Assembly (NCBI RefSeq): GCF_910596095.1
Contig: NC_056548.1
Span: 4,551,151-4,615,150 of the forward strand
Source of the DNA: Thunnus maccoyii
Taxonomy: Eukaryota; Chordata; Actinopteri; Scombriformes; Scombridae
Reading direction: 5' to 3'
Length of the DNA: 64,000 nucleotides
Of the stretch, positions 1 to 49,300 are shown in pieces. A program made the translations under genes and the position numbers. Below the pieces are notes generated by a model, which saw nothing but the letters and a program-made list of their open reading frames with translations, searched no databases and was not told where the DNA came from. Numbering within the stretch: position 1 is the stretch's first letter; each line of letters starts with the position of its first letter.

Positions 1-71
1 CATGGGATTAGTGGACTATAAGAAAAATATAGAACATGACCAGCCTTTAAATCGCTTGTAAATAAACTTAC

Positions 72-198
72 CTTGAGGACCTCATGTACAGGGCTTAGTA
101 AATACATGTGAGCAGATTGTTTCATGTCCATCAGAACAGACAAACAGCTTTCCCGAACATCCTCTGGGAACAGATCACTCTTCTTAATGAGGAAGTCC
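72..198 (-). CDS. Gene 1 coding exon 8 (last one in window)
   Basis: 127 nt, begins RDFLIKKSDLFPEDVRESCL after acceptor GTCTGCAG and ends KVLK-type at donor GTAAGTTT. Equivalent to gene 2 exon 17821-17947. Remaining exons are left of the window. Confidence 0.85.
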
Positions 199-10887: not shown

Positions 10888-11115
10888 AGGACGGCTTCAC
10901 ATTTTTCTTGCTGTAATCATTCCTCCTGTTCATACTGACCATCAGAAGATCCCTTCATAATGCACTTACAATGTAAGTGATGGGGGACAAAATCCACAGT
11001 TCTCCTTCTTTCCAAAAATGTTTTTAAAAGTTTATCTGAAGCTAATATGGAGCTTCAGCTTCAAATGAGTCAAATCAAGTAGATATCTTTCAATGTTACA
11101 GTCTTTTTAGAGAAA
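10888..11115. repeat. MITE family M1, left part
   Basis: Starts AAAGGACGGCTTCACATTTT, then CCTCCTGTTCATACTGACCA and the 'gatgggggacaaaatccacag' region found in the intron 7 elements; the right inverted end is missing. Confidence 0.6.
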
Positions 11116-11214
11116 AAGTCCAAAAACTGAAAACAGATTTGTGTATCAGAACTTTGTTTTTTCTTCTTTCCTCTCCCATTAATCATCTCACGACCCCTCA
11201 GATTTATCTGTTGA

Positions 11215-28851: not shown

Positions 28852-29047
28852 AAGACTATACTTTCAGGCATCGTTTCTGTACTTCTCAACTTGAGAAATG
28901 TGTTTCTAAAGAGTTTGGTCTCGCTGACCACAATGACGAGTTAAGATGTTTCCTTCAGAGCAAGAAACTGGTGGGAAGACTTTATTTCTCCTCCACTCTC
29001 TGAAACAAGACTCCTCAGTGGTTCTCATGGGAAAACATGTTGTGTAC
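28852..29047 (+). ncRNA. U3-like snoRNA copy 1, diverged
   Basis: Starts AAGACTATACTTTCAGG but box A is altered (GCATCGTTTCTGTAC). Keeps GAGAAATGTGTTTCTAAAGA and the AGAAACTGGTGGGAAGACTT block; the 3' end lacks the TCTGAGTGG terminus and the PSE-like flank is degraded. Probably a pseudogene of the family. Confidence 0.55.
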
Positions 29048-29445
29048 AGCTGTCAAAAAAACTTCCCCAAGACAACAGATGTAGTGCAAAAGTCACTCTG
29101 TTCACCCAGCACTTTTCTCTGGAGTAACTGAACAACTACAGGGCAGATTGACATAAAAATGTGTTAAGAATATTTGTCCCAAGAAGAGGAATCATAATAA
29201 ACCCCCAGACCTTTGCTCTAGTGCCACAAGTTTGTGAAATTCTTATAATACTTGTGCTAAAACAGAATTTTAACTAGCAGATTTCCATGAAATATATCTG
29301 GCACGTTCACTCTGATGAATATTGGCTTGACCTTAATCAGTCACTGATGACACTGTGATTGAAGGAGGAGTGTCTACAGGGGATCACCTGGAGTACGAGT
29401 GCTCGTCTCCAGACATAAGACCCTGAGAAACATCCAACACAAACC

Positions 29446-29651
29446 AAGACTATACTTTCAGGGATCATTTCTTTAGTTCTTGACTTGAGAAATGTGTTTC
29501 TAAAGAGTTTGGTCTCGCTGCCCACAATGAAGAGTTAAGATGTTTCCTTCAGAGCAGGAAACTGGTGGGAAGACTTTGTTTCTTCTCCACTGTTGAAGAC
29601 TGTTCAGTGTTTCTGAATGAGACTCTGATGGAGGAAACATGTTCTGAGTGG
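29446..29651 (+). ncRNA. SNORD3-like: U3-like snoRNA copy 2
   Basis: 206 nt. 5' end AAGACTATACTTTCAGGGAT then CATTTCTTTAG: box A'/A of U3 with one substitution from remembered vertebrate U3 (TATAG to TTTAG). A small hairpin (GAGAAATGTGTTTCT) follows, as in the U3 5' domain. GAGCAGGAAACTGG resembles box B, TTGAAGACTGTTC resembles the box C segment TTGATGATCGTTC, and the end TCTGAGTGG is the U3 box D terminus. PSE-like element about 62 nt upstream. Human U3 is about 217 nt. Confidence 0.75.
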
Positions 29652-30784
29652 ACTGTTGAATCTCTTCAAGCCGCATTAACTTAAAGTTTCACTTCTGACA
29701 AAACTAAAATTGTGTCTGATATGTAAATTCCACAAAAAGTTTAAATGGCTCTTTACAAACCCTTAAAAAACTTCCACTTTCTCTCTCCCACTAGAAAACA
29801 AAACTATGCAAGAAACAAGATGTCTCCTACTTCAATGTAAAGTCCATTATCAGTCTATGTGCACTGGAGGCTTCAAGTTTCCACATCACACTTGTTTAAG
29901 TTGGCTCCAAAGTTGTTGTGACATTACAAATCATGCTGGTAGGTACGTGTCTTAAACTGAGATATAAGACGAGCACAGAGAAACTTTCCTCCTTCAGCAG
30001 ATGAATGTGAAAACAAACCTTCATTCTGCACAGTGAAGTCAAACATCCAACAGAAAGAACAAGAAGAAAAACACATTTTTTGACTTTAAATACAGCAGTT
30101 TTAGATCAATATTCAAAAGGTTTTGTCATAGTTTCTCCAGGCTCGTTAGCCTCCGTTTGCTCAAATAACAAAATGAAGATGCTCTCAAAGTAGAGTGTAA
30201 ATGCAAATTTAAAGACAAACAACATTATATATATACACAAAATAGAATAAAGATAGAAATGTTTATCCATGTGAGCAACAGCTACAAATGTCAGTTTTTC
30301 TTGTTGACATTTGCTCCCAAAATTTACCTGATTTAAATATTTTTAATTAACTCAGATTTGTTTCTTATCTCTTTTCCTCTTTGATTGACATATTGATATA
30401 TTGGAAGAAGTGTGATGGAGGGTGTTTATGTCCATCTCAGAATATTTTTGAAAATATTTGTATATTTATTGGCACAGTCAACTCATAATACAGCAACACT
30501 GGTGATGAAATAAACATTTATATGTTGAGCTGCTGCTAAATTCTGCTGCTTCATGGATGATGACACCTCTGAAATATATTCACAAGTTCCTTTATAAACA
30601 CTCATTGAAAACATATTTATAACAGAACAAAGACACAAAAAATTAGTTTATCTGTTTCAGTTTGTTATCAATTAATGTGTCAGTGAGGATGCAGTTATTG
30701 TAGGAGGAGCGTCTACAGGGGATCACCAGGAGTACGAGTGTTCGTCTCCAGACATAAGACCCTGAGAAACATCCAGAACAAACC

Positions 30785-30990
30785 AAGACTATACTTTCAG
30801 GGATCATTTCTTTAGTTTTTGACTTGAGAAATGTGTTTCTAAAGAGTTTGGTCTCGCTGCCCATGATGAAGAGTTAAGATGTTTCCTTCAGAGCAGGAAA
30901 CTGGTGGGAAGACTTTGTTTCTTCTCCACTGTTGAAGACTGTTCAGTGTCTCTGAATGAGACTCTGAAGGAGGAAACATGTTCTGAGTGG
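30785..30990 (+). ncRNA. SNORD3-like: U3-like snoRNA copy 3
   Basis: 206 nt with intact U3-type 5' and 3' ends. Has a perfect box C'-type ATGATGAAG at about 30863. Flank with GATCACCAGGAGTACGAGTG upstream. Followed by AGTTTGCACAATGGTAAAAG, the same downstream type as copies 7 and 9. Confidence 0.75.
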
Positions 30991-31668
30991 AGTTTGCACA
31001 ATGGTAAAAGAGGAAGTGCCATTTGAAGGCCCAAAGCTTTAAGCCTAAAGACAGAAAATCTTTCACTGCAGTGAAATATTTAGCAGAATAGTAACTATGA
31101 AGTTCAGCTGTATATCTTGTGAATGTTCTTTGCTCTGTTGAACACTTCAATTTGGGGTGAAATATCTTAACAACTGCATTCAAGGTGACATGAACTCTGC
31201 TGTGGATTTAAAAAGTCCCCAGAGGAAGAATGTTTGACAACTTCACAACCTTTCCTCCATTGTTACAGCTCATTATTTCCACTTGTACACATACATAATT
31301 TAATGGGGAGAGTTCCATGAAATTTACTGATTATATTCAACAAACACTTGGTCTGTTCTGTAGTCCCTCTGCTGCTCTGTACAGAAAACACTCTGCACTG
31401 AATATTTATTTAAACCCCAAAGAATTTGACCTGTGGCCATCAACAGGCTTAGGTGGATGTGCACTGAAAGGTCACAACAAACAAGGTCAAAGTTGTAAGT
31501 GAATTGTGGAAAAAGCCTTAAAGCTACACTAGCTTTTCTCCAGAACTAACACAAGTCAATCAATCATTGACGATGCTGTGATTGTAGGAGGAGTGTCTAC
31601 AGGGGATCACCAGGAGTACGAGTGCTCGTCTTCAGACATAAGACCCTGAGAAACATCCAGAACAAACC

Positions 31669-31874
31669 AAGACTATACTTTCAGGGATCATTTCTTTAGT
31701 TCTTGACTTGAGAAATGTGTTTCTAAAGAGTTTGGTCTCGCTGCCCACAATGAAGAGTTAAGATGTTTCCTTCAGAGCAAGAAACTGGTGGGAAGACTTT
31801 GTTTCTTCTCCACTGTTGAAGACTGTTCAGTGTTTCTGAATGAGACTCTGATGGAGGAAACATGTTCTGAGTGG
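31669..31874 (+). ncRNA. SNORD3-like: U3-like snoRNA copy 4
   Basis: 206 nt. U3-type ends intact. An internal stem can form between 31763-31777 (ATGTTTCCTTCAGAG) and 31846-31863 (complementary apart from a 3-nt bulge). PSE-like flank present. Downstream ACTGTTTATCTTGTTAAATG is shared with copies 11 and 12. Confidence 0.75.
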
Positions 31875-32194
31875 ACTGTTTATCTTGTTAAATGAGTAGG
31901 AACTTGTAAAAACTTCTCTTAAGTGTTTCCAATGTTTGTTGCTTTATATCTTTGCTGCTTAGTTTTAAATTGGGCAGAGGTTTGCAGGGAATCCACCTGT
32001 ACACAGTGACCCCCTGTACCAAAAACATGATAAAAGTTGAAGTTTTCTTGCTTTAAGAAGTGCAACAAAACTATCAGAAGAGTGAAGCAGATTTCAATCA
32101 ATTACGGTCTGCACATGACCAGAGAGGAAGTCTGATCAGGCAACATAAGTGGGAACACATGTGTGGATGTTCAGAGTTGTTTGAAGTCGGCAAT

Positions 32195-32282
32195 CCTGGG
32201 AAGACTTTGTTTCTTCTCCACTGTTGAAGACTATGCGGTGTTTCTGAACAAGACTCTGATGGGGGAAACATGTTCTGAGTGG
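32195..32282 (+). ncRNA. U3-like snoRNA fragment, 5'-truncated
   Basis: Only the 3' ~88 nt remain (GGGAAGACTTTGTTTCTTCT to TCTGAGTGG). No promoter. The upstream neighbour (32100-32190) matches sequence at 45375-45500 in reverse, so truncation arose during a duplication. Confidence 0.65.
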
Positions 32283-32480
32283 ACTGTTTAATCTCTCCTG
32301 ACAAAAAAGATACTGTGTCTAATATGTAAATTCCACGAAAAGTTCAAATACGTCTTTAGAAAACCCTTAAACCTCCACTTCCTCTCTTTCATTGAAAAAC
32401 AAAACTATGCAAGAAACAAGAAGTCTCCTACTTCACTGTAAAGTCTATTATCAGTGTTTGTGCACTGTAAGTCGGCTCCA
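32283..32480. repeat. Third copy of U3-like downstream sequence
   Basis: Matches 29653-29900 and, reversed, 34610-34814 (for example AACTATGCAAGAAACAAGA and GTCTCCTACTTCA). Confidence 0.65.
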
Positions 32481-32497
32481 AAATTGTTGTGACGTTT

Positions 32498-32517
32498 CAA
32501 AAAAAAAAAAAAAAAAA
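32498..32517. repeat. Poly-A run
   Basis: About 19 consecutive A, interrupting the duplicated sequence. Confidence 0.9.
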
Positions 32518-32519
32518 GT

Positions 32520-33520
32520 TATTCAAAAAATATGTTGTGCTTGTATTACAACTCCAGCAACATCTCAAAAAACTAAGAAGCATATACATCCTTTTTTCAC
32601 AAAATGCAGTTTTTCTGTGTCTTCCAGCAGCACACACATTGTATAATTCTCAGACATTTCAGTAATATTTCATATAAGCACCAAAATAGCTCACTATCAT
32701 ACTTCATTACTACATAAACAGTGTGTGTAACTGTTTCCAGAGGTCAACTCTGAGCCCGTCAGGATTTCTAATAGCTAAAGTACAGTTATGTTTTTCAATC
32801 CTCTCTTTGGCAATCACTTTTATTCTGAGAGCTTCAGGCGTTCATAAATCAAAACAGTGATTAAGATATTGATTGATTGATAAACAGGGAGAGCTGCAGC
32901 CTGCCAAGACAAGTCAGAGTGTTACTCAAGAGCTCTTCAGCATGTCGACTCCTGTGAACAGACTCATTACAAACTAAACAGAACCAGGTCGACTCTTAGG
33001 ACATTGTGGAAGGAAACCAACATGAGAGCGAGGCTTTGTAAAGGAAACGGAAACTGTTAAAACACTTGAAACTGCACTTCCTCTGTTGGGAGCAGAAACA
33101 CGTGAACACGACACTGATCAGTGACAGAAAATGAGAAATATTCAAAATTGTGTCTTTATTGAAGATCCAAATGTAAACACACTGATGGACACACACACAC
33201 ACACACTTACTGTTTTTCATTATAGGTCATACAAAAGCCTTCAATGTTGTGGTGCAGAAAACAGCTTCTACACACATGAACAACAATGAAAGATGCCAAA
33301 CAACAGTCTGAGATCATAAAAATTACAAATGATTTAAAGGTTAGAAGGTCTTTATTTTTCTAAAGTAAGTGAATTTTATTAGTTAAACATGTTTTAGACT
33401 GTGGGTTTGCATCCCCTCATAAAAAAATTCTTAATACAACAGCTTGATTAATGTCTTGGTAAAACAGGTTCCAGACAATTTATGACACAAACCATTTCAT
33501 CTTTAACTTCTTACAAGGCA
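32520..33520. other. Spacer of the inverted duplication
   Basis: No gene seen. A short CA run lies at 33189-33204. Confidence 0.5.
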
Positions 33521-33526
33521 CAAAAC

Positions 33527-33732
33527 CCACTCAGAACATGTTTCCTCCATCAGAGTCTCTTTTAGAAATACTGAACAGTCTTCAACAGTGGAGAAGAAAC
33601 AAAGTCATCCCACCAGTTTCCTGCTCTGAAGGAAACATCTTAACTCTTCATCGTGGACAGCGAGACCAAACTCTTTAGAAACACATTTCTCAAGTCAAGA
33701 ACTAAAGAAATGATCCCTGAAAGTATAGTCTT
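33527..33732 (-). ncRNA. SNORD3-like: U3-like snoRNA copy 5
   Basis: 206 nt on the minus strand, U3-type 5' end at 33732; the box D end is CTGAGTGG. C'-type CACGATGAAGAG. Downstream GTTAAAGATGAAA about 24 nt past the end resembles an snRNA 3' box. Upstream flank is the 'gtgaactacaggagttcacc' subtype. Confidence 0.75.
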
Positions 33733-33774
33733 GGTTTGTTCTGGATGTTTCTCAGGGTCTTATGTCTGGAGACG

Positions 33775-33794
33775 AGCACTTGTACTCCTGGTGA
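33775..33794 (-). promoter_or_regulatory. PSE-like element of copy 5
   Basis: TCACCAGGAGTACAAGTGCT at -62 to -43 from the RNA start. Vertebrate snRNA/U3 PSEs sit near -55 and often begin TCACC. No TATA box near -25, consistent with Pol II use. Confidence 0.5.
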
Positions 33795-34814
33795 ACTCCT
33801 GTAGTTCACAAAGAAACTCCTCCTACAATCACAGCATCCTCACTGAAACTGATACAGATAAACTGATTTGTTGTGTCTTTGTTCTGTTATAAATATGTTT
33901 TCAATGAGTGTTTATAAAGGAACTTGTGAATATATTTCAGAGGTGTCATCATCCATGAAGCAGCAGAATTTAGCAGCAGCTCAACATATACATGTTTATT
34001 TCATCACCAGTGTTGCTGTATTATGAGTTGACTGTGCCAATAAATATACAAATATTTTCAAAAATATTCTGAGATGGACATAAACACTCTCCATCACACT
34101 TCTTCCAATATATCAATATGTCAATCAAAGAGGAAAAGAGATAAGAAACAAATCTGAGTTAATTAAAAATATTTAAATCAGGTAAATTTTGGGAGCAAAT
34201 GTCAACAAGAAAAACTGACATTTGTAGCTGTTGCTCACATGGATAAACATTTCTATCTTTATTCTATTTTGTGTATATATATAATGTTGTTTGTCTTTAA
34301 ATTTGCATTTACACTCTACTTTGAGAGCATCTTCATTTTGTTATTTGAGCAAACGGAGGCTAACGAGCCTGGAGAAACTATGACAAAACCTTTTGAATAT
34401 TGATCTAAAACTGCTGTATTTAAAGTTTCCCTCTGGTCAAAAAATGTGTTTTTCTTCTTGTTCTTTCTGTTGGATGTTGGACTTCACTGTGCAGAATGAA
34501 GGTTTGTTCTCACATTCATCTGCTGAAGGAGGAAAGTTTCTCTGTGCTCGTCTTATATCTCAGTTTAAGACACGTACCTATCAGCATGATTTGTAATGTC
34601 ACTACAATTTTGGAGCCAACTTAAACAAGTGTGATGTGGAAACTTGAAGCCTCCAGTGCACATAGACTGATAAAGGACTTTACAGTGAAGTAGGAGACAT
34701 GTGGTACGTATCTGGCATAGTTTTGTTTTTCAATGAGAGAGAGAGAGGAAGGGGAAGTTCTTGGAATTTATGTATTAAACACAGTATCTTTTTTGTTAGG
34801 AGAGATTAAAGAGT

Positions 34815-35015
34815 CCACTCAGAACATGTTTCCTTCATCAGAGTCTCTTGCAGAAACACTGAACAGTCTTCAATAGTGGAGAAGAAGACTTTCCACCAGT
34901 TTCCTGCTCTGAAGAAAACATCTTAATTCTTCATCGTGGACAGCGAGACCAAACTGTTTAGAAGCACATTCCTCAAGTCAAGAACTAAAGAAATGATCCC
35001 TGAAAGTATAGTCTT
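34815..35015 (-). ncRNA. SNORD3-like: U3-like snoRNA copy 6
   Basis: 201 nt, inverted partner of copy 2. U3-type ends intact; a 5-nt shorter middle (AAGAAGACTTTCC region). PSE-like flank at about 35058-35077. Confidence 0.7.
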
Positions 35016-35462
35016 GGTTTGTTCTGGATGTTTCTCAGAGTCTTATGTCTGGAGACGAGCACTTGTACTCCTGGTGAACTCCTGTAGACACTCCTCCTAC
35101 AATCATAAAAGAGTTTGTGGATGATTAGCTTACTTTACTTTGAGTGACCTTTTACACTTTCTAGTGTATTAAAAAAGTGGAGATACGGTTTGGTTGACAT
35201 CCAATGTCATGATGTTCACAAGCATACAGTAAAGTACATTTTTTAATAACTGCCCAAATAGTGCACGGACAAGAGTTTAGGAATGCACAGATATAATTTG
35301 CACTGGGAGAAAGAAAGAGATATGTCTCCCCAAAAACTTAATGTAAATAATTTCTACCCCTAAAATGCTTAAATCTATTAGTTATAAAGGTGAAAGTACG
35401 AATGAGAGACTTTGTAGTTCACGTCACATTTATGCACCGTTAATGTGTTGCTGATCAACCCA

Positions 35463-35765
35463 ATCACCAGAATAAAACGTTGGCATTAAACGTTTCTGCA
35501 AACCACAGATACATTGAATGTCCACGTTTCAATGTTGGCCATTATCCATTGAATAATGATGTTTTATGATGTGACAACGCTGTAGTTAAGGTCTGGTTAG
35601 GTCCTCCTCCTAATAAGAAAGTCAGCTCATATAGGTGATACATATTGTTGAAATGTTAATATGCTACATATTACATGTGTTGAAACTATATATGATGATA
35701 TGATATTAAACGTTTCTGTGGTTTGCAGAAACATACAATGCCAACATTTTATTCTAGCGACCAGG
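35463..35765. repeat. Foldback MITE family M3, full-length
   Basis: Left end CCAGAATAAAACGTTGGCAT with CTGCAAACCACAG, right end CTGTGGTTTGCAGAAACATA and CAACATTTTATTCTAGCGAC: inverted repeats at the ends of a ~300-bp unit. It ends just before the flank of copy 7. Confidence 0.65.
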
Positions 35766-35881
35766 TTGTGCTGATGAGGCTGTGATTGAAGGAGGAGTGT
35801 CTTTGTGGACAACAGGAGTTCACCAGGAGTACGAGTGCTCGTCTCCAGATATAAGACCCTGAGAAACATCCAGAACTAACC

Positions 35882-36087
35882 AAGACTATACTTTCAGGGA
35901 TCATTTCTTTAGTTCTTGACTTGAGAAATGTGTTTCTAAAGAGTTTGGTCTCGCTGCCCACGATGAAGAGCTGAGATGTTTTCTTCAGAGCAGGAAACTG
36001 GTGGGAAGACTTTGTTTCTTCTCCACTGTTGAAGACTGTTCAGTGTCTCTGAATGAGACTCTGAAGGAGGAAACATGTTCTGAGTGG
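35882..36087 (+). ncRNA. SNORD3-like: U3-like snoRNA copy 7
   Basis: 206 nt, U3-type ends intact. GATGTTTTCTTCAGAG still pairs with the downstream stem through a G-U. Flank subtype with 'ttgtggacaacaggagttcacc'. Together with copy 8 it is a direct duplicate of the copy 3-copy 4 block. Confidence 0.75.
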
Positions 36088-36680
36088 AGTTTGCATACTT
36101 GTCAAAAGAGGAAGTGCTATTTAAAGTCCTAAAGCTTTAAGTCTGAAGACTCATTGTAGTGAAATATTTAGTAGAATAATAACTATGAAGTTCAGCTGTT
36201 TATCTTGACAGTGTGACGGTTCCTTGCTCTGTTGAACACTTCAATTTGGGGTGAAATATCTTCACAACTGCGTTCAGGGTGACATGAACTCTGCTGTTGA
36301 TTTAAAAGGTCCCCAGAGGAAGAATGTTTAACAACTTCACAACCTTTCCTCTATTGTCACAGCTTATTATTTCTACTTGTACACAAACATAATTTTATTG
36401 GGAAGAGTTCCATGAAATTTACTCATCATATTCCAGAGAACAAACACTTGGTCTGTTCTGTAGTCCCTCTGCTGCTCTGTACAGAAAACACTCTGCACTG
36501 AATATTTATTTAAATCCAAAAGAAGACATCCTGTGACTATCAACAGGCTTAGGTGGATGTGCACTGAAAGGTCACAACAAACAAGGTCAAAGTTGTAAGT
36601 GAATTGTGGAAAAAGCCTTAAAGCTTCACTGGCTTTTCTCCAGAACTAACACAAGTCAATCAATCATTGACGATGCTGTG
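36080..36680. repeat. Spacer duplicated from 30990-31590
   Basis: Runs parallel to 30986-31590 with landmarks TGAAATATTTAGTAGAATAA, CCCCAGAGGAAGAATGTTTA and GGTGGATGTGCACTGAAAGG. Confidence 0.75.
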
Positions 36681-36706
36681 ATTGTAGGAGGAGCGTCTAC
36701 AGGAGT

Positions 36707-36726
36707 TCACCAGGAGTACGAGTGCT
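36707..36726 (+). promoter_or_regulatory. PSE-like element of copy 8
   Basis: TCACCAGGAGTACGAGTGCT at -62 to -43 from the RNA start at 36769. This 20-mer is the family's commonest form. Confidence 0.5.
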
Positions 36727-36768
36727 CGTCTCCAAATATAAGACCCCGAGAAACATCCAGAACAAACC

Positions 36769-36974
36769 AAGACTATACTTTCAGGGATCATTTCTTTAGT
36801 TTTTGACTTGAGAAATGTGTTTCTAAAGAGTTTGGTCTCGCTGCCCACGATGAAGAGTTAAGATGTTTCCTTCAGAGCAGGAAACTGGTGGGAAGACTTT
36901 GTTTCTTCTCCACTATTGAAGACTGTTCAGTGTCTCTGAATGAGACTCTGAAGGAGGAAACATGTTCTGAGTGG
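36769..36974 (+). ncRNA. SNORD3-like: U3-like snoRNA copy 8
   Basis: 206 nt, U3-type ends intact, C'-type CACGATGAAGAG. Downstream GTAATAAGCTAAAGATGAAT could contain a 3'-box-like element. Confidence 0.75.
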
Positions 36975-36989
36975 TTTTTGTGTTTTGTA

Positions 36990-37675
36990 ATAAGCTAAAG
37001 ATGAATTGTTTTTTGTCATAAAATATCTAGAGCTTGTGTAGTTATTAAAAAATGTCAAGTTCATTGCTGATTTCCTCAAGTAAATGTAGATGTTGTGTAA
37101 TTCTTCTTAGCTGGTTGTAGTTAGGAAGAGATTTGCTGACAACACCAGTGTTACTGAACAATATGTTTTACCAGAATAATAAAGATTAAAGGTTACATAG
37201 CTCTGGTTCTGCAGTCAGGAAAGATTTTGTCTCCCTAACCTTTCTATGTGGTGTCCAGAGTTCAATCGGATTGAACTTTAACACACTGGCTCTCTATTGT
37301 CCAGCTAGTTTGACAGAGTGTTGAGATTGACCTCTCGCTCAGGACAGTGTTTATTTTCCTGTTTCAAAACTGCATGATGAAATAATTCAAGCAGCAGATA
37401 AGGGAAAATGTTGTATAGTGGGTGCAAGGATGGTAACAGAGGTTAATGACAATAAAATGTCTGATAAAAAGTTGCATAATTTGCAACTTTGTGGGCTGCT
37501 TTTGTTTGCCTGCCAGCCATCTCCAGCAGTTTCTCTTCACAATCCTACTCACGCTATTTCCTGTCATCTCAGCTTTTGGCCACAACATGCAAATAAATTT
37601 CTCAGGCAACATAATTGAAAACACCTGTGTGGGCGAACCATGATTTTATAACAGCTTAAAAGTATTTGGCTGGCG
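36990..37675. other. Unassigned stretch after copy 8
   Basis: Non-coding, no repeat boundary recognised. It includes an octamer-like ATGCAAAT at about 37588 that is not placed upstream of any U3-like copy. Confidence 0.45.
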
Positions 37676-38900
37676 ATTTTCTATATTTATCTTATCGTCA
37701 ACAAATCTCATGTGCAGAACCAAACCAACAATGGACTCATCCTATTAAGTATTGTGTGTGTATCCAAAGCCTGATATATATTATTCCTCTGTGCTGTAGA
37801 CCTCCGTTGTTGTCCAAAAACTATTAGAAACACACAATGAGCCACACACTGCACCGGGCGACATGTTCCTTCATACCTGAAGACAGAAGTTACTGTAGTT
37901 TTATAGAAACAGCTCCCAAGACTAATAATTGCGATCACGTTTTCAGTCTCAGGAGAGTAGTTTTGTGTACAGCAGACGCCACTGAGCATTTGCGGGAACT
38001 CACTTCAGGCTGTATACAAACCATTTCAGGTGTTGTGGCGCCCCGCTGCAGGTGTGAGCAGAGGTGTGTTGGTGTGTTTGTGCTCCAGAACGTAACCGCT
38101 GTTAAACAATCAGAAAATAACATTTTATTGATCTGATTCACCGGCTTTCTCACTACCATTGCTCCCTCCCTTCATTCCCTCTCTAGCTCGCTCGACCACA
38201 GCTGCTCTCTGTCTCTCTTTTTTTCTCATAATTTTTAAAATGAGTTTGTTTTTTTTAATATTATCAAAAGAAGAGAAATGCCCTCCCCTCCTCCTATAAA
38301 CATCTTCGTCTTCCCTCATGGCAGAGTTGACAGCTCCGATAAGTCTGATTGCCGGCTGTTGGCCACTGCAGCATGACGTTGGATTGCGTTTCTCCAAAAA
38401 TTGACTCTGGATCAACTTTCTCACTGCAGGCCGGTACAGCAACCCCCTCCCCGAGCCTAAACGCACTACCCCCATTTAAATGAATAGGAGTACTGGTGTT
38501 TTCGCTGCACCGCCTTATTTGGTCTGAATACACCCTTAGCTTGTTGTGCTACATATCACAACCTCTTGACTTTGTACTGAAGTACTTCGAGAAATGTACA
38601 AGAAGCACAAAGTCGAAAGATTATTATGTAGCTCAACAAGCTAAGAAAGCTGTAAACAAAACTGAGTTCCTGCACATGCTCAGTGGCGTCTGCCATTCAA
38701 GGAACCTCTTTCCGGAAAGTTTCAATCTTATCGATGTTATTCATCTTTGGAGACTCATCTTTCTAAACAAACTACGGAAGGAACATGTCACTCAGTGCGG
38801 CGATGTGGCTCATTGACATGTTTTTTGGACAACAACGGAGGTCAACGGCACAGAGGAATAAGATATATCAGGCTTTGGATACATACACACACAATACAAA
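37676..38900. repeat. Foldback MITE family M2 with an internal insertion
   Basis: Left block (CTTATCGTCAACAAATCTCA to 'gtccaaaaactattagaaaca') and right block (38780-38897, with TTTTTTGGACAACAACGGAG and AGATATATCAGGCTTTGGAT) are inverted repeats. The middle, about 38040-38530, is a GC-richer unrelated insert ending near TTTGGTCTGAATACACCC. Confidence 0.55.
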
Positions 38901-39563
38901 GCATTTTTCCCATACACAATCACTAGAAAAGGAGCGGCCACACTTGAATACAACAGATCCATCATTCATTTTATCGGTAACATCTGTGCTTTTGGTGCCT
39001 TCACATGACATTTCTGTTCTCCGGAAGTTCACCTCCGAAAAAGGGTGTGATGTCACATTTGTGTTAAATAAATATTGATGAGAGCGATCGCAAACTCTAG
39101 ACAGTCTATAAGAGAGAGACTACAGTTTGTAGTCAGGTAGTGAGATAATTTACTAAAAACTGTGATGAAACACACAAGAATAATAACTTCTCCATTTCCA
39201 AACATGGCGCAGCAGTTTCTATTGGCCAAGTAAGCATATCCGCTAAAATTTAAACAAAGGGGAACTTTGACCTGTGAAACCACCAGAGCGGGCTAGACAT
39301 CGCACAAAACAGGAAACTAACTCTTACTTTATTTGTCAGCCAGGCTTCAGTAGAACTGAAGAGGAAAGTGAATATTTGTCATGTCAAAATGTCCACTGTG
39401 AAAAAGAACTTCTGCAGTTTTGCTCCATCACCAAAAAAAGAGGCCTATCTGTCAATGATGACACTGATTGAAGGAGGAGTGTCTTTGTGAACTACAGGGG
39501 TTCACCAGGAATACATGTGCTCATCTCCAGACTTAAGACCCCGAGAAACATCCAGAACAAATC

Positions 39564-39769
39564 AAGACTATACTTTCAGGGATCATTTCTTTAGTGCTTG
39601 ACTTGAGAAATGTGTTTCTAAAGAGTTTGGTCTCGCTGCCCACGATGAAGAGTTGAGATGTTTCCTCCAGAGCAGGAAATTAGTGGTAAGACTTTGTTTC
39701 TTCTCCACTGTTGAAGACTGTTCAGTGTTTCTGAAAGAGACTCTGATGGAGGAAACATGTTCTGAATGG
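39564..39769 (+). ncRNA. SNORD3-like: U3-like snoRNA copy 9
   Basis: 206 nt, 5' end intact; 3' end TCTGAATGG, one change after the CTGA of box D. GGAAATTAGTGGTAAG replaces the usual GGAAACTGGTGGGAAG. Flank subtype 'ttgtgaactacaggggttcacc'. Downstream matches copies 3 and 7. Confidence 0.68.
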
Positions 39770-40095
39770 AGTTTGCACAGTGGTAAAAGAGGAAGTGCCA
39801 TTTGAAGGCCTAAAGCTTTAAGCCTAAAGACAGAAAATCTTTCACTGCAGTGAAATATTTAGCAGAATAATAACTTTGAAGTTCAGCTGTATATCTTGAC
39901 AGTGTGAATGTTCTTTGCTCTTTTGTCTAAAAAGCTTTAGTTTTTTTGGTTTCTTTGCAGCTATTTCATGCTAATTCATTATTGACCTAGTTATTGACTC
40001 TACCTCAGTATGTTCCACAACAGGATTTTGTCTCATTATTCAGAGTGTCCATAAATATTACGTGGCCTGATATCATCAGTACAAAGGCTACACAA

Positions 40096-40166
40096 AACTT
40101 CCTGCTCTGAAGGAAACATCTTATAACTTCCTGCTCTGAAGGAAACATCTTATAACTTCCTGCTCT
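40096..40166. repeat. 29-bp tandem repeat derived from the U3-like unit
   Basis: About 2.4 units of AACTTCCTGCTCTGAAGGAA + ACATCTTAT, which is the antisense of the box B region of the U3-like copies. A local slippage product. Confidence 0.75.
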
Positions 40167-40169
40167 TAT

Positions 40170-41685
40170 CGCTTCATTGCTGGTCGACATCCAAATATAT
40201 GCGCTCCATCTGTAATCTCTAATTTAAATGCATATTAGTAAAAGCTTATAAAATGGCAGCAGAATTCATTAAAACTGGCAAATGAACTTTTGTGCTTTTC
40301 TACATACTAGACTGGTGACTGAGGAATCTTGTTCTGAGTGGGTTTCATGCACAGCTCAAGTTAAAAATTAAATCTTTTGAGTCATGCAGATTTTAACATC
40401 TTCAGCCAAAATTAACCAGCCAAAAAATTTTAAGCAATCACTAGAATGATCATCTTCAGACTTCCATTTTTTTTCCTTTATCTACTTAAAGTTGTATTTG
40501 AAAACCTGTCAAATTCCCAAAAAGCATAATTTTTCAGTGTCTGCAGATACATCATTCTGCCAACATTGTGAACCCACATTTCCCAACTTTGTGAAGTCTG
40601 CACAATTTCATACATTTTGAAGTCACCCCCTTTTTCCCAAGAAAATGATATTTCATCTCTGAATTAGGTAAAGCTGTCCAGACTGTCTCTTTGACGAATG
40701 TTTGAGGTAGGAAGATCCGGATGTTAGACTCACTGAGAAGGATTGAGGGGAGTTTATTCACTATGTCCACTCATCCTCTCTGTGAGCCGAACAAGGATTC
40801 ATCCAGTGACCAAACTTGCCTTTTTACTTTAATACACAAACTCTGATCTTTTCCACTATTACAATGCATTCTCAACAAAGTCCTAAGTCTTAAATACGAG
40901 ATTTGAATATGAGAGAAGAGCCAAAAAAGATTTGACTATTTTCCTAAAAAAAACGTACAACTATTTATTAGTTCTTATCAAGGTTGACAAGCGTCTTGAT
41001 TAACATACAGTTGTGTACAGTAATATGCACATATTCATGTTAACATTTGATATATTTTAATACAGAAAAGATTAAATAGTGCCAAGAAAATTTTCCTGCA
41101 GCTGTGGCCAGAAAGGAACATCTGGAATATGAGATTAAATTAAAAAGGAGGAAAAAAAGCAGAGTAAGGGGACCCATATTTCACTCTGAAAGGAGTTCAG
41201 AGGACTAAATTCCCTGTACAGAGTCCTCAGTTCCTGGCTCAATAGCACTTAACAGATACATGGCGCAGGCACTTGAAGAGTTACAGTTTCTTACAGTTTT
41301 TGTCCGCTGATCTGACACTAAAAACTCAAACTAAGGTACAACACAGCCTTTAAAGAAGACACATTTTGCAAAAAAAGGTCAAATTCTATTGCAAAATAAA
41401 GTGCTGTTGAGAAAACTCGGCACAAAAACCTGCCTTTTATTAGTTACATATGTTGACAGACTTCATCTGAACACAAAGTTTCACAATTGTTTTTCTTCCC
41501 TCCTGAAACTTTTAATTACATCCAGATTATCTTGGGAGAAGTTTTACTTCCCAGAAACAAAAGCATCTCCTTCCTTACAATTCTATGTGTCTAATGTGTT
41601 ACATAGGTTATAGGTTTTGTAAACAATATCACATTTCTACATTTGTCTGTGTTAAAGGAGATATTAAAGGAAATGTTTGACAGTT
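40170..41685. other. Unassigned stretch
   Basis: No gene or RNA recognised. A weak TTGTTCTGAGTGGGTTT at about 40329-40345 may be a worn U3-like terminus. Confidence 0.4.
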
Positions 41686-41689
41686 TTCT

Positions 41690-42425
41690 ATAATTCTTCT
41701 TATCGTCAACAAATCTCATGTGCAGACCAACCAAACCAACAATGAACTGATCTACTAAAAAGTATTGTGTGTGTATTCAAAGTCTGATATATCTTATTCC
41801 TCTGTGCCGTAGGCCTCGGTTGTTCAAAAACTATTAAAAACACACCAATGAGCCACACTGCTGCTTCATAATGTTCCTTTGTTATGAAGTTTGGTCACAT
41901 TAGTTTGTTTAGAAACAGCTCCAAAGACTAATAACAACAATCGTGTTTTCAGTCTCTGGAGAGTAGTTCCTTGTAAAGCAGTTGTGCTACATATTTCAAC
42001 CTCTTGACTTTGTACCTCATTGTAAATTTCTCGAAGACTTTAGTACAAAGTCAAGAGGTTGTGTTATGTAGCACAACAAGCTAACAAAGCAGTAACTAGA
42101 ACTGAGTGCTCAACAAGCTAGCAAAGCTCTTTAAACGCAGTCCTGCATATTCTCAGCAGTGTCTGTCTTGCACAGAACTACTCTCCTGAGACAGAAAACA
42201 TGATCGCTTTCATTAGTCTTTGGAGCTATTTCTAAACAAACATTATTAAACTCTTCATAATAAAGGCTCATGTCACCCAGTGCAGCTGTGTGGCTCACTG
42301 ATGTGCACAGAGGAATAAGATATATCAGGCTTTGGATACACACACACACAATACTTGTTAGTAGATCAATTCATTGTTGGTTTGACTCTGCACATGAGAT
42401 TTGTTGACAATAAGAAAAATATAGA
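41690..42425. repeat. Foldback MITE family M2, complete
   Basis: ~735 bp with long inverted ends: left CTTATCGTCAACAAATCTCA, right TGAGATTTGTTGACAATAAG. The centre holds a second palindrome (ACCTCTTGACTTTGTAC near 42000 and GTACAAAGTCAAGAGGTTGT near 42045). Confidence 0.65.
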
Positions 42426-42711
42426 AAATCACCAGACTTATATCACATGTGGCAAATGCAGAAATGCCACATGTTTACCACTTACAAAACCTATTAAATG
42501 TGACACATGCAACATGCGTGTTACATATTAGAATTGTGAAGAACAGATGTTTTGGAAAACGGAAAACAAGCTCATCATCAGTTTATTTATCAGAAATCTG
42601 TCAGGCCAGAGAATTAAAAGTGCATTTTGTAAAAATGAATGAACAGATGTTTTAAAGTTTTATTTTAACTTTGTTTAAAGGATAAAACTGATGTAACTCT
42701 ATTTTTTTCTT

Positions 42712-43000
42712 ACTGTCAACAAATCTCATGAAAAAAAACAAAACCAACAGTGTGTTAGTCCGTCTCCCAGTACTTCACTCCCCTGTCTGCGGCCTTCAGC
42801 TTCAAGCCCATTGGTCCCTGTTGACAACTGTTAATCTTTAAAACAGTATATAAATATATAGTTCAATTGTTTAAAACTGCTCAGTCATTTCCTCAAAAAG
42901 CTGGGCACACGGAAATGGTCCATTTGTTGGGGACTATTTTCAGCAGCATGTATCTGATTCTGCACAAAAATGCTGCAGTTGGTTTGAGTTTACATGGCTG
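42712..43000. repeat. MITE M2-related fragment
   Basis: CTTACTGTCAACAAATCTCA then 'gtgttagtccgtctcccagtac' and TTGTTGGGGACTATTTTCAG, matching the longer version at 62995-63560. Confidence 0.5.
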
Positions 43001-43140
43001 TGCTTGAGAGCAGGGTCCTTAATTTTTGTCAAAATATTTCAAACCAGCTTAGGAAAACTGCGACTGTCAACCTTTTCTGTGACCTCTTGTGCTTTCCATT
43101 CTTCTTTCATGCAGCGATGCATGCAGTCCATCACATTTCA

Positions 43141-43360
43141 CTAGTGGTCGGGCAGCAAGAAGTTGAGGCATGGGAAAGGCAGATTGGACAGGCAGTCTGT
43201 GTTGACGGTGACCTGCATGTCACTAAATAAAGCTTGGCTCTTGTCGCCGGCAGCACTTCCTTGTTTCTTCTTCAGCTCTGTGAGTCGCTGGAGGATCAGC
43301 TGGTGCTCACGGCCCCTCACCAGACCTCTGAAATTCAGAACAGCAACCAGGTGCTTCCTG
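43141..43360 (-). CDS. Gene 3 last exon with stop
   Basis: 220 nt after acceptor TCTCTACCTGCAG. The first base completes a split glycine codon from 50577-50698, then RKHLVAVLNFRGLVRGREHQ, a lysine-rich LTELKKKQGS, and a tail ending NFLLPDH and TAG. The tail is about 24 residues longer than in gene 2. Confidence 0.78.
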
Positions 43361-46300
43361 CTGCAGGTAGAGAAGAAGAAAAGACTAATTATACCCATGA
43401 ATTTCATACCTGCCACAACTGTGGGGGTTTTTTGCAGGGTTATTAAGGCATTTGAGGAATGTTTTCTGATATACTTGAGTGTCATGGCAGCGATGACCCA
43501 CAAAAATAAAAAGTTAATTTGTCACTAATTATAGGAGTGTCTTTGTGAACAACAGGAGTTCATCAGGAGTACGAGTGCTCGTCTCCAGACATAAGACCCT
43601 GAGAAACATCCATAAGAAACCAAGACTTTCCTTTCAGAGATAAAATCTTTAGTTTTTGACTTGAGAAATGTGTTTCTGAAGAGTTTGGTCTCACTGCTCA
43701 TGGTGATGAAGTGTTAAGATGTTTCCTTCCAAGCAGGAAACTGGTGGGGAAACATTATTTCTTCTCCATTGTTGAAGACTGTTAAGTGTTGCTGAGAGAG
43801 ACTCTGTTGGAGGAAATGTTTTCTGAGAGGTCTTTTTACTTAAGCAACAGTACAAACTCTTTGTCATCTATCCTTTATTGCATTGTTTAATGTTCCAAGT
43901 ATGAAAAGTAAAAAACCTTTAGCTTCAAACTGTCACAAGTTGGATAAAATGAAGGAAATATTTGGAAGTGTTTACTCACTTGAGCAATCTCTGCAAATGT
44001 ATTTAATTTTCTCTGAAATTTGCTGCAGGAATGTTTATGACACTGAGTTCATGGTTTCACTGATGAAGGAATCCTGTTTCAAGTGGACTGTTTTGTAGAT
44101 CTAACAACAAGGCTCTGTTCACTTTAGTTGACTTTTGCTGTTGTGCAACATCATTCAGCAACTCACAGCAGTGACCAGTCGAATATTAATCATACTCAAG
44201 GGGAATTGTTACTGTTATAATAACCTTCCAGAGTTGTACAATCTTGTCTCATGCAAAGTTTTGGCATCTGATTAGCTTTTAAACTCATGGATGTGTCACG
44301 CAGACTGGACTTTCTGGATCATATTTAATCTTCTCATACAGTAGGCAGCTGTAGCAAAATGCTCAGACCAGTGTAGCTCTTTGTATTTTTATTGACCCAG
44401 TTCCATTTTTTATCTCAAGGCGGCCTAACAGCAGTGACAGTTGTTTGTCTGATTGAAGGAGGAGTGTCTCTGTGAACAACAGGAGTTCACCAGGAGTACG
44501 AGTGCTGGTCTCCAGACATAAGACCCTGAGAAACATCCAGAACTAAACAAGACTATACTTTCAGGGATCATTTCTTTAGTTCTTGACTTGCGAAATGTGT
44601 TTCTAAAGAGTTTGGTCTCGCTGCCCACAATGAAGAGTGAAGATGTTTCCTTCAGAGCAAGAAACTGGTGGGAAGACTTTGTCTCTTCTCCACTTTTGAA
44701 GACTGTTCAGGGTTTCTGAAAGAGACTCTGATAGAGGAAACATGTTCTGAGTGGACTGTTTATCTTGTTAAAAAATATCACTCTTTTTTTATATGTGTGT
44801 GTTTTTAAAGTTATATTTCTCCTTTTCAACACACATAGAAACTACAACAAAAAGAAAACCCCAAACTAAACAAACTCAGGACAGCAGCTAAATCAAGAAT
44901 TGCCATGTGACTACATACATTTCAAGACTAGTGCAAAACAAAAAAAGGGATCTGCTGCTTTCCAGTATTAGGACACTAGTTTTCAGAGAAAGAAGATAGG
45001 AAACAAGATAAATTGCTAACTATCTTTATCGCGTCACTCAAACAGTAATTCACCAAAATGTTGTAGCAAAGTGCTTTCCAATTAGCTCTTGTTAAACTGT
45101 TCTTGGTATCTTATTTTTTGTTATCAGTGAATGTTGCAGCCATTTTACGCTCATTCATTACCAAACTTGTTTACCAATTTTCCTCAGTTTATGCTACAGG
45201 ATTTTGTCTCATGATTCAGGTTTTAAATAAATATATTTGTAATCTGGTATTCTCAGTAGAAGTCTCTACTGTGAAACCATCTGATGTGAATAAAATGTCC
45301 TGAGGACCACAACATATCTTCAGACATCTTTTCTTTAAACAAATCTCCAAACACCAGTTTCAGGGTTTTCTTAAGAATCAAAACTCAGATGTTCTTGAGT
45401 CCACATGGCAAAGGATTGCCGACTTCAAACAACCCTGAACATCCACACACGTGTTCCCACTTATGTTGCCTGATCAGACTTCCTCTCTGGTCATGTGCAG
45501 ACCGTAATCGATTAAAATCTCCTTCACTCTTCTGATAGTTTTGTTGCACTTGTTAAAGCAAGACAACTTCAATCTTTATCATGTTTTTGGTATAGGGGGT
45601 CACTGAGTACAGGTGGATTCCCTGCAAATGTCTTCCTAATTTAAACCTGAGCAGCAAAGATATAAAGTAACAGACACCAGAAACACTTAAGAAAAGTTTG
45701 AAAGACAAGTTCCTACTCATTTAACAAGATAAACAGCCCACTCAGAACATGTTTCCTCCATCAGAGTCTCTTCCAGAAACACTGAACAGTCTTCAACAGT
45801 GAAGAAGAGACAAAGTCTTCCCACCAGCTTCCTGCTCTGAAGGAAACATTTTAAATCTTCATCATGGGTAGCGAGACCAAACTCTTTAGAAACACATTTC
45901 TCAAGTCAAAAACTAAAGAAATGATCCCTGAAAGTATAGTCTTGGTTTGTTCTGGATGTTTCTCAGGGTCTTATGTTTGGAGACCAGCACTTGTACTCCT
46001 GGCGAACTCCTGTTGCTCACAAAGGCACTCCTCCTTCAATCAGACAAACAACTGTCACTGCTGTTAGGCCGCCTTCTGATAAAAAATGGAACTGGGTCAA
46101 TAAAAATACAAAGAGCTGCACTGGTTTGAGCATTTTGCTACAGCTGCCTACTGTATGAGAAGATTAAATATGAACCAAAAAGTCCAGTCTGAGTGACACA
46201 TCCATGAGTTTAAAAGCTAATCAGATGCATAAACTCTGCATGAGACAGGATTGTTCAACTCTGGAAGGTTATCACGACAGCAATTCCCCTTCCGTATCTA

Positions 46301-49300
46301 CAGTATGATTCATATACGACTGGTCACTGCTGTGAGTTGCTGAATGATGTTGCAATGCACCAAAAGTTGATTCAGGTTCAATTTTATTTTTTTAATTTTT
46401 TTTACAGAAGTTTTCTGTGACAGTTAAATACTGAAAATGTCAGATTTGAAAATAGTTCCCTGTACTGTGATGACAAAATAACATAAACTGCAACTAAATA
46501 TGTCGACACCAAACGGTGAGTTTATGCTATTTTGAGCATCTGGCTTCTACAGTTCATGTTCAAGCATCTGAAATGAAGTCAGGCAGAAAAAAAACTTTAG
46601 ATTAACTAAAGTGAACGGAGATTGGTTGTTAGGTTCTTTATATCAGTGAAACTATGAACTCAAAGTCATAAAAAGTTCTGCAGCAAATTTCAGAGAGAAT
46701 AAATTACATTTGCAGAGAGTGCTTAAGTGAGTAAACACTTATAAGTCCTGTCCTCATTCCATCCTGTGCATATGTACATGTGAAGTACAGGAACAACATT
46801 GAGTGACTCAACCAACAAAAGGAACCTACTACTTAGTATTTTACATTGCTAAGCTAAACAGTCCACTCAGAATGTTTCCTCCTTCAGAGTCTCTTCCAGA
46901 AACACTGAACAGTCTTCAACAATGGAGAAGAAACAAAGTCTTCCCACCAGTTTCCTGCTCTGAAGGAAACATCTTAATTCTTCATTGTGGACAGTGAGAC
47001 CAAAATCTTTAAAAACACATTTCTCAAGCCAAGAACTAAAGAAATGATCCCTGAAAGTATAGTCTTGGTTTGTTCTGGATGTTTCTCAGGGTCTTATATC
47101 TGGAGACCAGCACTCGTACTCCTGGTGATCTCCTGCAAAGACACTCCTCCTACAATCAGACTGTCATCAGAAACAGATTAAAATATTGTTGTGAATTTCT
47201 GCTGAATGTTTTGATGTGACAGCGAATGTATAATTTCTGTAAGAACACAACTCAAAACTTTCATCTAAATCATGAACTACTACTACTTGCAAATTTTCAT
47301 TCAGCGTTTTCAGGAGGAGTATCTTTGTGAACAACAGGAGTTCACCAGGAGTACGAGTGCTCGTCTCCAGACATAAGACCCTGAGAAACATCCAGAACAA
47401 ATCAAGACTATACTTTCAGGGATCATTTCTTTAGTTCTTGACTTGAGGAATGTGTTTCTAAAGAGTTTGGTCTCGCTGCCCATGATGAAGAGTTAAGATG
47501 TTTCCTTCAGAGCAGGAAACTGGTGGGAAGACTTTGTTTCTTCTCCACTGCTGAAGACTGTTCAGTGTTTCTGAAAGAGACTCTGAAGGAGGAAACATGT
47601 TCTGAGAGGACAGTTGAGTTGTCCAAAAAAAACAGACCTGGTTGCCTAGTAATCAAGTGGTTTTATAGCTGACTCATTTGAGCAAGTTAACACATGATAA
47701 TTCGCATGTGTTATTCCATTCTGTAGTGTGTCACTTGAAAATTGTTGTTATTGAGCTGCAGTCTGAGTGTTGCAGGAAGGGTCACTGTAGTGTGAACCAC
47801 ATGAAGCTGATCCCTTTCATTCAGGTTCACTTCCACTCCAAACAATCATGCTTTATCACCTCTTCATTCAGACAGGAATCAAAGGTCACACATCACATCT
47901 TCTGTGTTTTTATCTTACATTCCTCCACATATGCCATGTTTGTTTACTACTGTGGTCATGGAAACGCTCTCCAGCCTATATCACCTGCTTGAGGATTGAG
48001 ATTGATCACCTCCACCGTTGTGTAAGAGCGCACCTTAAGTATGTTCACAGGGGTTGTGTGTTTGCTGGCTTTGTATACCTACGTGAAGCATGTTTATGGC
48101 CAAAGAGTTCATCACCAACATAACATTAGTTTGTTTGTTTTTCCTGTTGCCTGTTTGATTGACCAATCCCATCACATGTCTCCAGTTTTTTGCTCTACTT
48201 AACACATGACTTCACAGCAGAGGTCAACATCATCTCACGGGGCATGAACTTAAAGAGGACATATCCTGCACATTTCCAGGATATTAATATGGGACTTTAC
48301 TGGAATATATATATGCATGATTTACAGTTTATCTTATACTGGCCTTTACAACGCCCCTAAGTTCAGCCTCTGTGTGAAACAGGCTGTTTTAGCTCCTGTG
48401 TCTTTATGACTCGCTTCCCGATGAACCCACTCTGCTCATCATGCTCAAATGTAAATTACACACAGTGTGATCTTGAGCATTTTAATCAATAAAAGTATGA
48501 AAATCATAGATAATAACAGCACAGATGCCACATGCTAAGCTCCTTTCTCATCTATCAGAGCAAAAACTGAAAATATTTCCTTTGAGATCCATCTGCAGAG
48601 CAGAAGTTTTGTCTGTCTGTGTTTAACCTCTCGGTTAAAAAGTCCATCGGCCAACATATCAGGCCAGGATCAATGCTGTGGATGCTCTTTAACCTTTCTG
48701 ATAAAATATGTGGCTGGATATAAGTAAAAGCTGAGGAGAAATCTATAAAAACACCCTCAAGGTGTGACAGAATCATGTTAAGTAGGGTGCCCGTCGCATC
48801 ATCAACACCCCTGCCAGACCTGTAAGCAAATTGAAGCAGATCCAAATTTGCCTGCACTGTGTTCAGAAGCTCGTCCTTCACAATCTTCTCAAGTCATTTC
48901 ACAACCAGAGATGTAATTGCCACAGGCCTGTGGTCATTAAGTGTCTTTGGAGAATTGTTTTTTGGCACAACACACAAGGAACCCTATGGAGTTGGAGAGA
49001 CTTAAAAAGAACTTAAAAATAAAACAGAATATATCTGCCAACTGTTCGGTATAATTTTTAAGGATACAACCTCCAAAACCATCAGGACCGGGGCTTTTCC
49101 TTTCCTTTATACCCCGTAAAAGTTTCAGAACCCTACTCCTGTCTAAGTGCACGCTGCTCTGCTCGGAAACAGCATTTTTATCAACTGACAGCACCTTGCT
49201 AAAATCATGGATGTTAAAACAATTATAAAAAAAAGTTCAGTTCATTTGAAAGGTCTAGATCAGGGGTGCCATTAAGGGAGATGAGACATTTCTTGGACTG

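Follow-up and report, generated by a model that had tools for sequence, protein, structure and literature searches.

A cluster of 14 U3-like snoRNA units in inverted and direct repeats beside TNFAIP2-like genes of the tuna Thunnus maccoyii

The window analysed here is a 64-kb stretch of the Thunnus maccoyii genome. On its minus strand Sec6-domain exons, identified with Pfam, mark TNFAIP2-like genes, and the one solved structure that these neighbour genes match is TNFAIP2 (5b86). Gene A covers at least 1352-4438 (region 1-4438) and gene B 16052-22780; both are TNFAIP2-like, lie on the minus strand and are close copies of each other, their Sec6 exons being 90% identical in protein. Among 22 protein relatives found for the TNFAIP2-like neighbour the nearest reaches 81%, and the cichlid Haplochromis burtoni has a TNFAIP2-like protein that matches the neighbour gene at 58%. 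Gene C, a third and more diverged TNFAIP2-like gene, reaches the right end of the window. Its Sec6-like pieces are found at 63822-63989 (E 3e-5), at about 51.5-51.8 kb (51561-51713, minus strand, 27.3 bits, below the Pfam cut-off of 29.7) and, doubtfully, at 50582-50725 (E 0.22). The putative last exon of gene C, Table 1, is an open frame after a pyrimidine-rich stretch ending in CAG, and it closes with a TAG stop at 43141-43143. Sec6 is not matched within this exon itself, so its assignment to gene C is inferred. A search against solved structures gave no match for the 43-kb frame and a single unrelated match (E 1.4) for the 51.5-kb frame.

The whole window was scanned with cmscan and Rfam 15. 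Fourteen matches to the U3 model RF00012 reach its gathering cut-off of 34 bits, all of them between positions 28852 and 47610, and every match of gathering strength in the window is U3. Their E-values range from 7.8e-6 to 1.8e-31. We numbered the units u1 to u14 from left to right, see Table 1; ten are on the plus strand and four (u5, u6, u12, u13) on the minus strand. Twelve of them, called the better units below, score 116-140.6 bits, and the two others are u1 and u10. All 14 matches cover model positions 1-219 from end to end, which rules out a chimeric unit that is U3 at its ends only. The original prediction had recognised the units as U3-like and proposed a search of the region with RF00012; the identification is supported by the full-length covariance-model match at each start. 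A permissive Rfam search of the whole window (E up to 1) yielded no extra U3 match, and neither RF00012 nor blastn finds a full U3 unit elsewhere in the 64 kb. The exact 27-base U3 5' end has no match in viral genome contigs and none in prokaryote genome contigs.

According to these positions, gene C plausibly holds units u10-u14 within an intron, between 43141-43360 and the 51.5-kb piece, and u1-u9 would be located between gene B and gene C. The array had been placed inside and beside an immune-type gene family; the family is now identified as TNFAIP2-like, and the placing is plausible by way of the putative exon. We saw no sign of any connection between the U3 units and TNFAIP2.

Table 1. 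Coordinates of the U3 units, the U3 fragment, the repeated segments and the putative exon of gene C. Unit scores are RF00012 bit scores.
Feature	Position	Strand	Description
Putative last exon of gene C	43141-43360	-	open frame, stop TAG
u1	28852-29043	+	probable pseudogene; 41.5 bits
u2	29446-29652	+	U3 gene copy; 130.4 bits
u3	30785-30991	+	U3 gene copy; 132.7 bits
u4	31669-31875	+	U3 gene copy; 130.6 bits
U3 3' fragment	32197-32283	+	87 nt, 93.1% to the 3' part of the unit consensus (blastn)
u5	33526-33732	-	U3 gene copy; 131.5 bits
u6	34814-35015	-	U3 gene copy; 5-nt deletion in apical loop; 130.0 bits
u7	35882-36088	+	U3 gene copy; 131.5 bits
u8	36769-36975	+	U3 gene copy; 138.6 bits
u9	39564-39770	+	U3 gene copy; terminal C'/D stem with one broken pair; 128.5 bits
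u10	43622-43831	+	probable pseudogene (altered 5' end and box A); 60.3 bits
u11	44549-44755	+	U3 gene copy; 122.1 bits
u12	45737-45943	-	U3 gene copy; top model score, 140.6 bits
u13	46862-47066	-	U3 gene copy; 2 nt deleted 5' of box D; 116 bits
u14	47404-47610	+	U3 gene copy; terminal stem with one broken pair; 120.4 bits
Cassette u2-spacer-u3	29356-30996		inverted copy 33521-35105 (u6-spacer-u5); blastn 89.2%, 1665 columns
Cassette u3-spacer-u4	30684-31874		direct copy 35772-36974 (u7-spacer-u8); blastn 91.4%, 1213 columns
u11 with 5' flank	44131-44772		inverted copy 45720-46367 (u12); blastn 91.1%, 651 columns
u13/u14 head-to-head imperfect palindrome	46854-47618		765 bp, 83%; self-inverted match (blastn)

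Ten out of 14 units are 207 nt long (u1 192, u6 202, u10 210 and u13 205 nt). The 5' 17-mer AAGACTATACTTTCAGG is exact in 13 units and carries three mismatches in u10; in shuffled sequence, sites with up to three mismatches occur 0.29 times on average. It continues into the box A core GGGATCATTTCTTTAG in 12 of the 13, the exception being u1. At the other end, TCTGAGTGG is present in 10 out of 14 units, altered in u9, u10 and u14, and missing from u1. These counts agree with the original prediction, which had described 14 U3-like units and one fragment (located at 32197-32283), the same start in 13 units and its continuation in 12, a common end in most of them, a length of about 206 nt, and nine or ten units on the plus strand with four on the minus strand.

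Boxes A' and A of U3 pair with 18S rRNA, and their sequence CTTTCAGGGATCATTTC is carried by all units except u1 and u10. All 14 units have ATGA in box C', and the CTGA of box D is found at the end of 13. Box C' begins with CG, TG or CA depending on the unit (alignment columns 83-84), which is the pattern of a decaying CpG. Boxes B and C deviate from the Rfam consensus: for the UGA of box B every one of the 12 better units has GGA or AGA, and for the UUGAUGA of box C they have UUGAAGA, or CUGAAGA in u14. In each of the 12 the departures hit letters marked as strongly conserved in that consensus. The defects of u1 are a changed box A, a 5-nt insertion before box C and a deleted box D region, and u10 has 31 differences from the unit consensus.

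To describe the predicted secondary structure, the pairs of RF00012 were tallied on the most frequent letter at each position in the 12 better units, with u1 and u10 excluded. Out of 63 model pairs 58 could be placed, and five are absent because the apical stems of the units are shorter. Fifty of the placed pairs are kept, and in 20 of these both letters differ from the model; eight are broken, five of which belong to the 5' hairpin with its 16 model pairs. The 20 double changes are not independent evidence for the structure, since the alignment was fitted to the model. In most units the C'/D stem, CCgC/GcGG in the Rfam consensus, reads CCAC/GUGG; the outermost pair of the model is mostly broken here, and one further pair is broken in u9 and one in u14. 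The B/C closing stem is kept, with one pair changed from G-C to A-U. The double changes in these two stems, one pair each, adjoin fixed box letters and can be aligned without a gap. Within the set of 14 copies, covariation is no better than in shuffled alignments (one double-change pair versus 1.3), and RNAalifold run on the units prefers another 5' fold, with double changes in 0 out of 61 pairs.

The similarity extends upstream of the RNA. A block of about 90 bases is conserved in 13 out of 14 units, and because of this block the units look like gene copies made at the DNA level. In u1 it has decayed, with 48.9-67.4% identity to the other units. Among the better units positions -75 to -1 are free of gaps and almost invariant, TCACC occurs at -62 in 11 out of 12, and the sequence up to about -110 can be aligned with a 9-nt gap in some units. 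Beyond the block, the flanks are unrelated for most unit pairs.

Vertebrate genes of the snRNA type, with a DSE, a PSE and a 3' box (PMC5493778), are likewise short and have a compact upstream region that is conserved, and the TCACC at -62 fits this likeness. When scored with the mammalian PSE consensus published there, the site at -62 agrees in 8-9 out of 12 positions in 11 of the 14 units; however, a score of 8 or more is reached by 1.6% of all window positions, and in 10 out of 13 units (u1 excluded) the interval from -130 to -20 holds a site that scores as well or better. No octamer is common to the units when searched to -450 with up to one mismatch, and the 3' box scores at the units, 8-9 out of 12, are the same as in random stretches. 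In the octamer and the 3' box the tuna units differ from that type, and their agreement with the PSE is partial. For fishes, a U2 study places a putative PSE at about -60 (PMC3544641), and a study of MRP-RNA promoters did not find the octamer in three species (PMC1796607). Four out of the 12 better units (u3, u8, u12, u13) contain an internal TTTTT, which argues against transcription by polymerase III. Animal U3 genes are RNA polymerase II genes.

We consider it likely that the locus is a cluster of U3 snoRNA genes that are transcribed independently, each consisting of an RNA of about 207 nt and an upstream promoter block of about 90 nt. Twelve of the copies would be functional, while u1 and u10 are probably pseudogenes. 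Every intact copy would have a promoter of its own, used by RNA polymerase II, and the U3 RNA would serve the early steps of 18S rRNA processing through pairing of boxes A'/A with the pre-18S rRNA. The many copies may meet a large demand for U3.

The same units could instead be amplified U3 pseudogenes, that is, an old divergent copy duplicated together with its relatives while the genuine U3 genes are located in another part of the genome. Two clearly decayed units, the fragments, boxes B and C that are off consensus in all 12 better units, and mutual differences of up to 9.4% among these units would all fit such an origin. We nevertheless regard it as unlikely, as CTTTCAGGGATCATTTC is kept in 12 units, the CTGA end in 13 and most of the stems, and as the upstream block stays conserved where the flanks are lost. 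For several pairs the body is also more alike than the shared flank: 83.9% versus 67.2% for u10-u13, 93.7% versus 89.8% and 82.0% for u4-u12, and 97.6% versus 89.5% and 93.8% for u3-u7. This is not true for all pairs, the opposite being found for u3-u5 (95.2% versus 96.4% and 99.7%) and u11-u12 (92.3% versus 94.5%).

The 14 copies are packed into 18.8 kb, with spacers of 0.34-3.85 kb. Self-comparison with blastn reveals a 1.6-kb inverted repeat, a 1.2-kb direct repeat and a 765-bp imperfect palindrome, see Table 1, and each of these three has both its ends at U3 units. Further inverted pairs are u11/u12 with the 5' flank, and u4/u12 and u10/u13 with the 3' flank; here only one end is at a U3 unit. 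The other end of the u4/u12 repeat is, in one copy, the U3 fragment: the copied stretch downstream of u4 stops at 32197-32283, and 31579-32197 matches 46042-45412. For u10/u13 the other end is near a weak U3 remnant at about 44059-44104 (31 out of 46 letters, where the best unrelated sites of the window reach 26), and for u11/u12 it is at no known U3 piece. Smaller U3 remnants are found as 25-mers at 40099-40123 and 40128-40152, and at 40321-40341.

Inverted repeats are prone to error in assembly, and the palindrome is of this kind, so one or a few U3 genes might have been multiplied by mis-joining. This is the least probable of the explanations considered, since the 12 better units differ from each other by 0.5-9.4%, most of the flanks are distinct and the window contains no N.

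We compared 340 bases on each side of all 14 units, accepting matches with E up to 1e-6. Four pairs have their 5' flanks in common (u3-u5, u4-u8, u11-u12, u13-u14) and seven pairs their 3' flanks (u2-u6, u3-u7, u3-u9, u7-u9, u4-u12, u5-u8, u10-u13). Not a single pair is alike on both sides. Copying of blocks with a unit in the middle would predict two-sided likeness, and therefore the homology of the flanks switches at the units. The switch may be read as inversion and exchange with U3 as the homology, although the exact joint, inside a unit or at its edge, cannot be fixed because all units are alike.

A mobile SINE-like element derived from U3 and spread as a sharp-ended unit of about 310 bp would also leave unrelated flanks in most unit pairs, and the common block does have fairly sharp ends (about -90 to -115 upstream and 0 to +17 downstream). 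We find it very improbable: no full unit occurs outside the cluster within the 64-kb window, the copying took spacers of about 0.7 and 1.1 kb along with the units, and the upstream sequence is included, unlike in an RNA retrocopy, with no long A-rich 3' tail visible by eye. Simple retrocopies are judged unlikely on the same two grounds, the copied upstream block and the lack of a long A-rich tail.

If the units are U3 genes, the cluster probably expanded as U3-spacer-U3 cassettes were duplicated and inverted, with the U3 units as the places of exchange. That the units also undergo gene conversion is likely, though less well supported. The 12 better units have pairwise identities of 90.6-99.5%, whatever their flanks do. 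In the direct cassette the bodies differ by 2.4% and 3.4% and the spacer by 7.8%, which is what selection alone would give. In the inverted cassette the bodies differ by 6.4% and 4.8% and the whole spacer by 4.7%, which is no difference (Fisher 0.29 and 1.0). The middle 800 bases of this spacer, a part chosen post hoc, differ by 1.1% (Fisher 5.7e-5 and 0.0018 versus the bodies), and its left 197 bases (29653-29849, next to u2/u6), likewise chosen post hoc, by 25%; edge and middle perhaps stem from two separate copying events. We do not count the divergence of spacer versus body as support for gene conversion, because it is significant only for the post hoc middle part.

The site patterns were examined in the 12 better units. 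Out of 120 pairs of sites 52 are incompatible, versus 54.3 expected for independent columns (sd 5.3), and the Hudson-Kaplan count gives at least seven exchanges. No effect of distance on incompatibility was found among these units, and recurrent mutation could produce the same patterns.

A more specific and tentative proposal, which we rate as possible rather than probable, is that the U3 units are themselves recombination joints. The block of promoter and RNA, about 310 bp, would serve as the homology for inversions, cassette copying and exchange, each unit would join 5' and 3' flanks of different origin, and the variants would be reassorted into a pool of expressed U3 variants. It is weakened by the whole-spacer comparison, which does not support conversion.

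The original prediction knew of no description of such a dense, two-strand U3-like array inside and beside an immune-type gene family. For human 17p11.2, U3 genes are already reported to be clustered in a complex inverted repeat (title of Gao et al. 1997, cited in PMC2784804 and PMC4802181). The tuna array is for this reason not a new kind of thing. It resembles the human SNORD3 cluster, whose U3 genes are clustered in an inverted repeat structure according to that title, in having both orientations within repeated segments, with 10 plus and four minus units in inverted and direct cassettes; it differs in lying beside TNFAIP2-like genes, with its 14 copies in 18.8 kb. How densely the units are packed, and how the flanks switch around U3, might deserve the attention of specialists.

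Multi-copy U3-U5 genes are described in Euglena gracilis (PMC2784804). There, too, U3 genes are many, and neighbouring spacers fall into families that were taken as traces of duplication. In the linkages described there, however, a convergent U5 accompanies each U3, whereas the permissive Rfam search (E up to 1) has no U5 match anywhere in the 64-kb tuna window. Among the listed titles and abstract openings of the open-licence literature we did not find a U3 array of a fish, teleosts included, which is no proof that none is in print.

If the preferred reading of the locus as a cluster of U3 genes is right, it would add to the human cluster a second vertebrate example of U3 genes in inverted repeats, and it would be a compact one-locus example of an essential small RNA family that stays alike amid reshuffled surroundings. 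Variants private to the units would make any expressed copies easy to tell apart.

The window also contains other repeats. An interspersed repeat, probably a transposable element, occurs in both orientations at 37670-37997, 41684-41981, 42141-42435 and 63348-63569, with 72-80% identity. Another family, with members of a few hundred bases, is present at 239-606, 10902-11119, 18009-18656, 24653-25170 and 58217-58491, and some of its members match their own reverse complement. The frame at 48555-48893 weakly matches reverse transcriptase (RVT_1) with E 0.0017, short of the Pfam cut-off, and is probably a decayed LINE. At 53622-53690 there are 11 copies of AGGGTT, a telomere-type repeat internal to the sequence.
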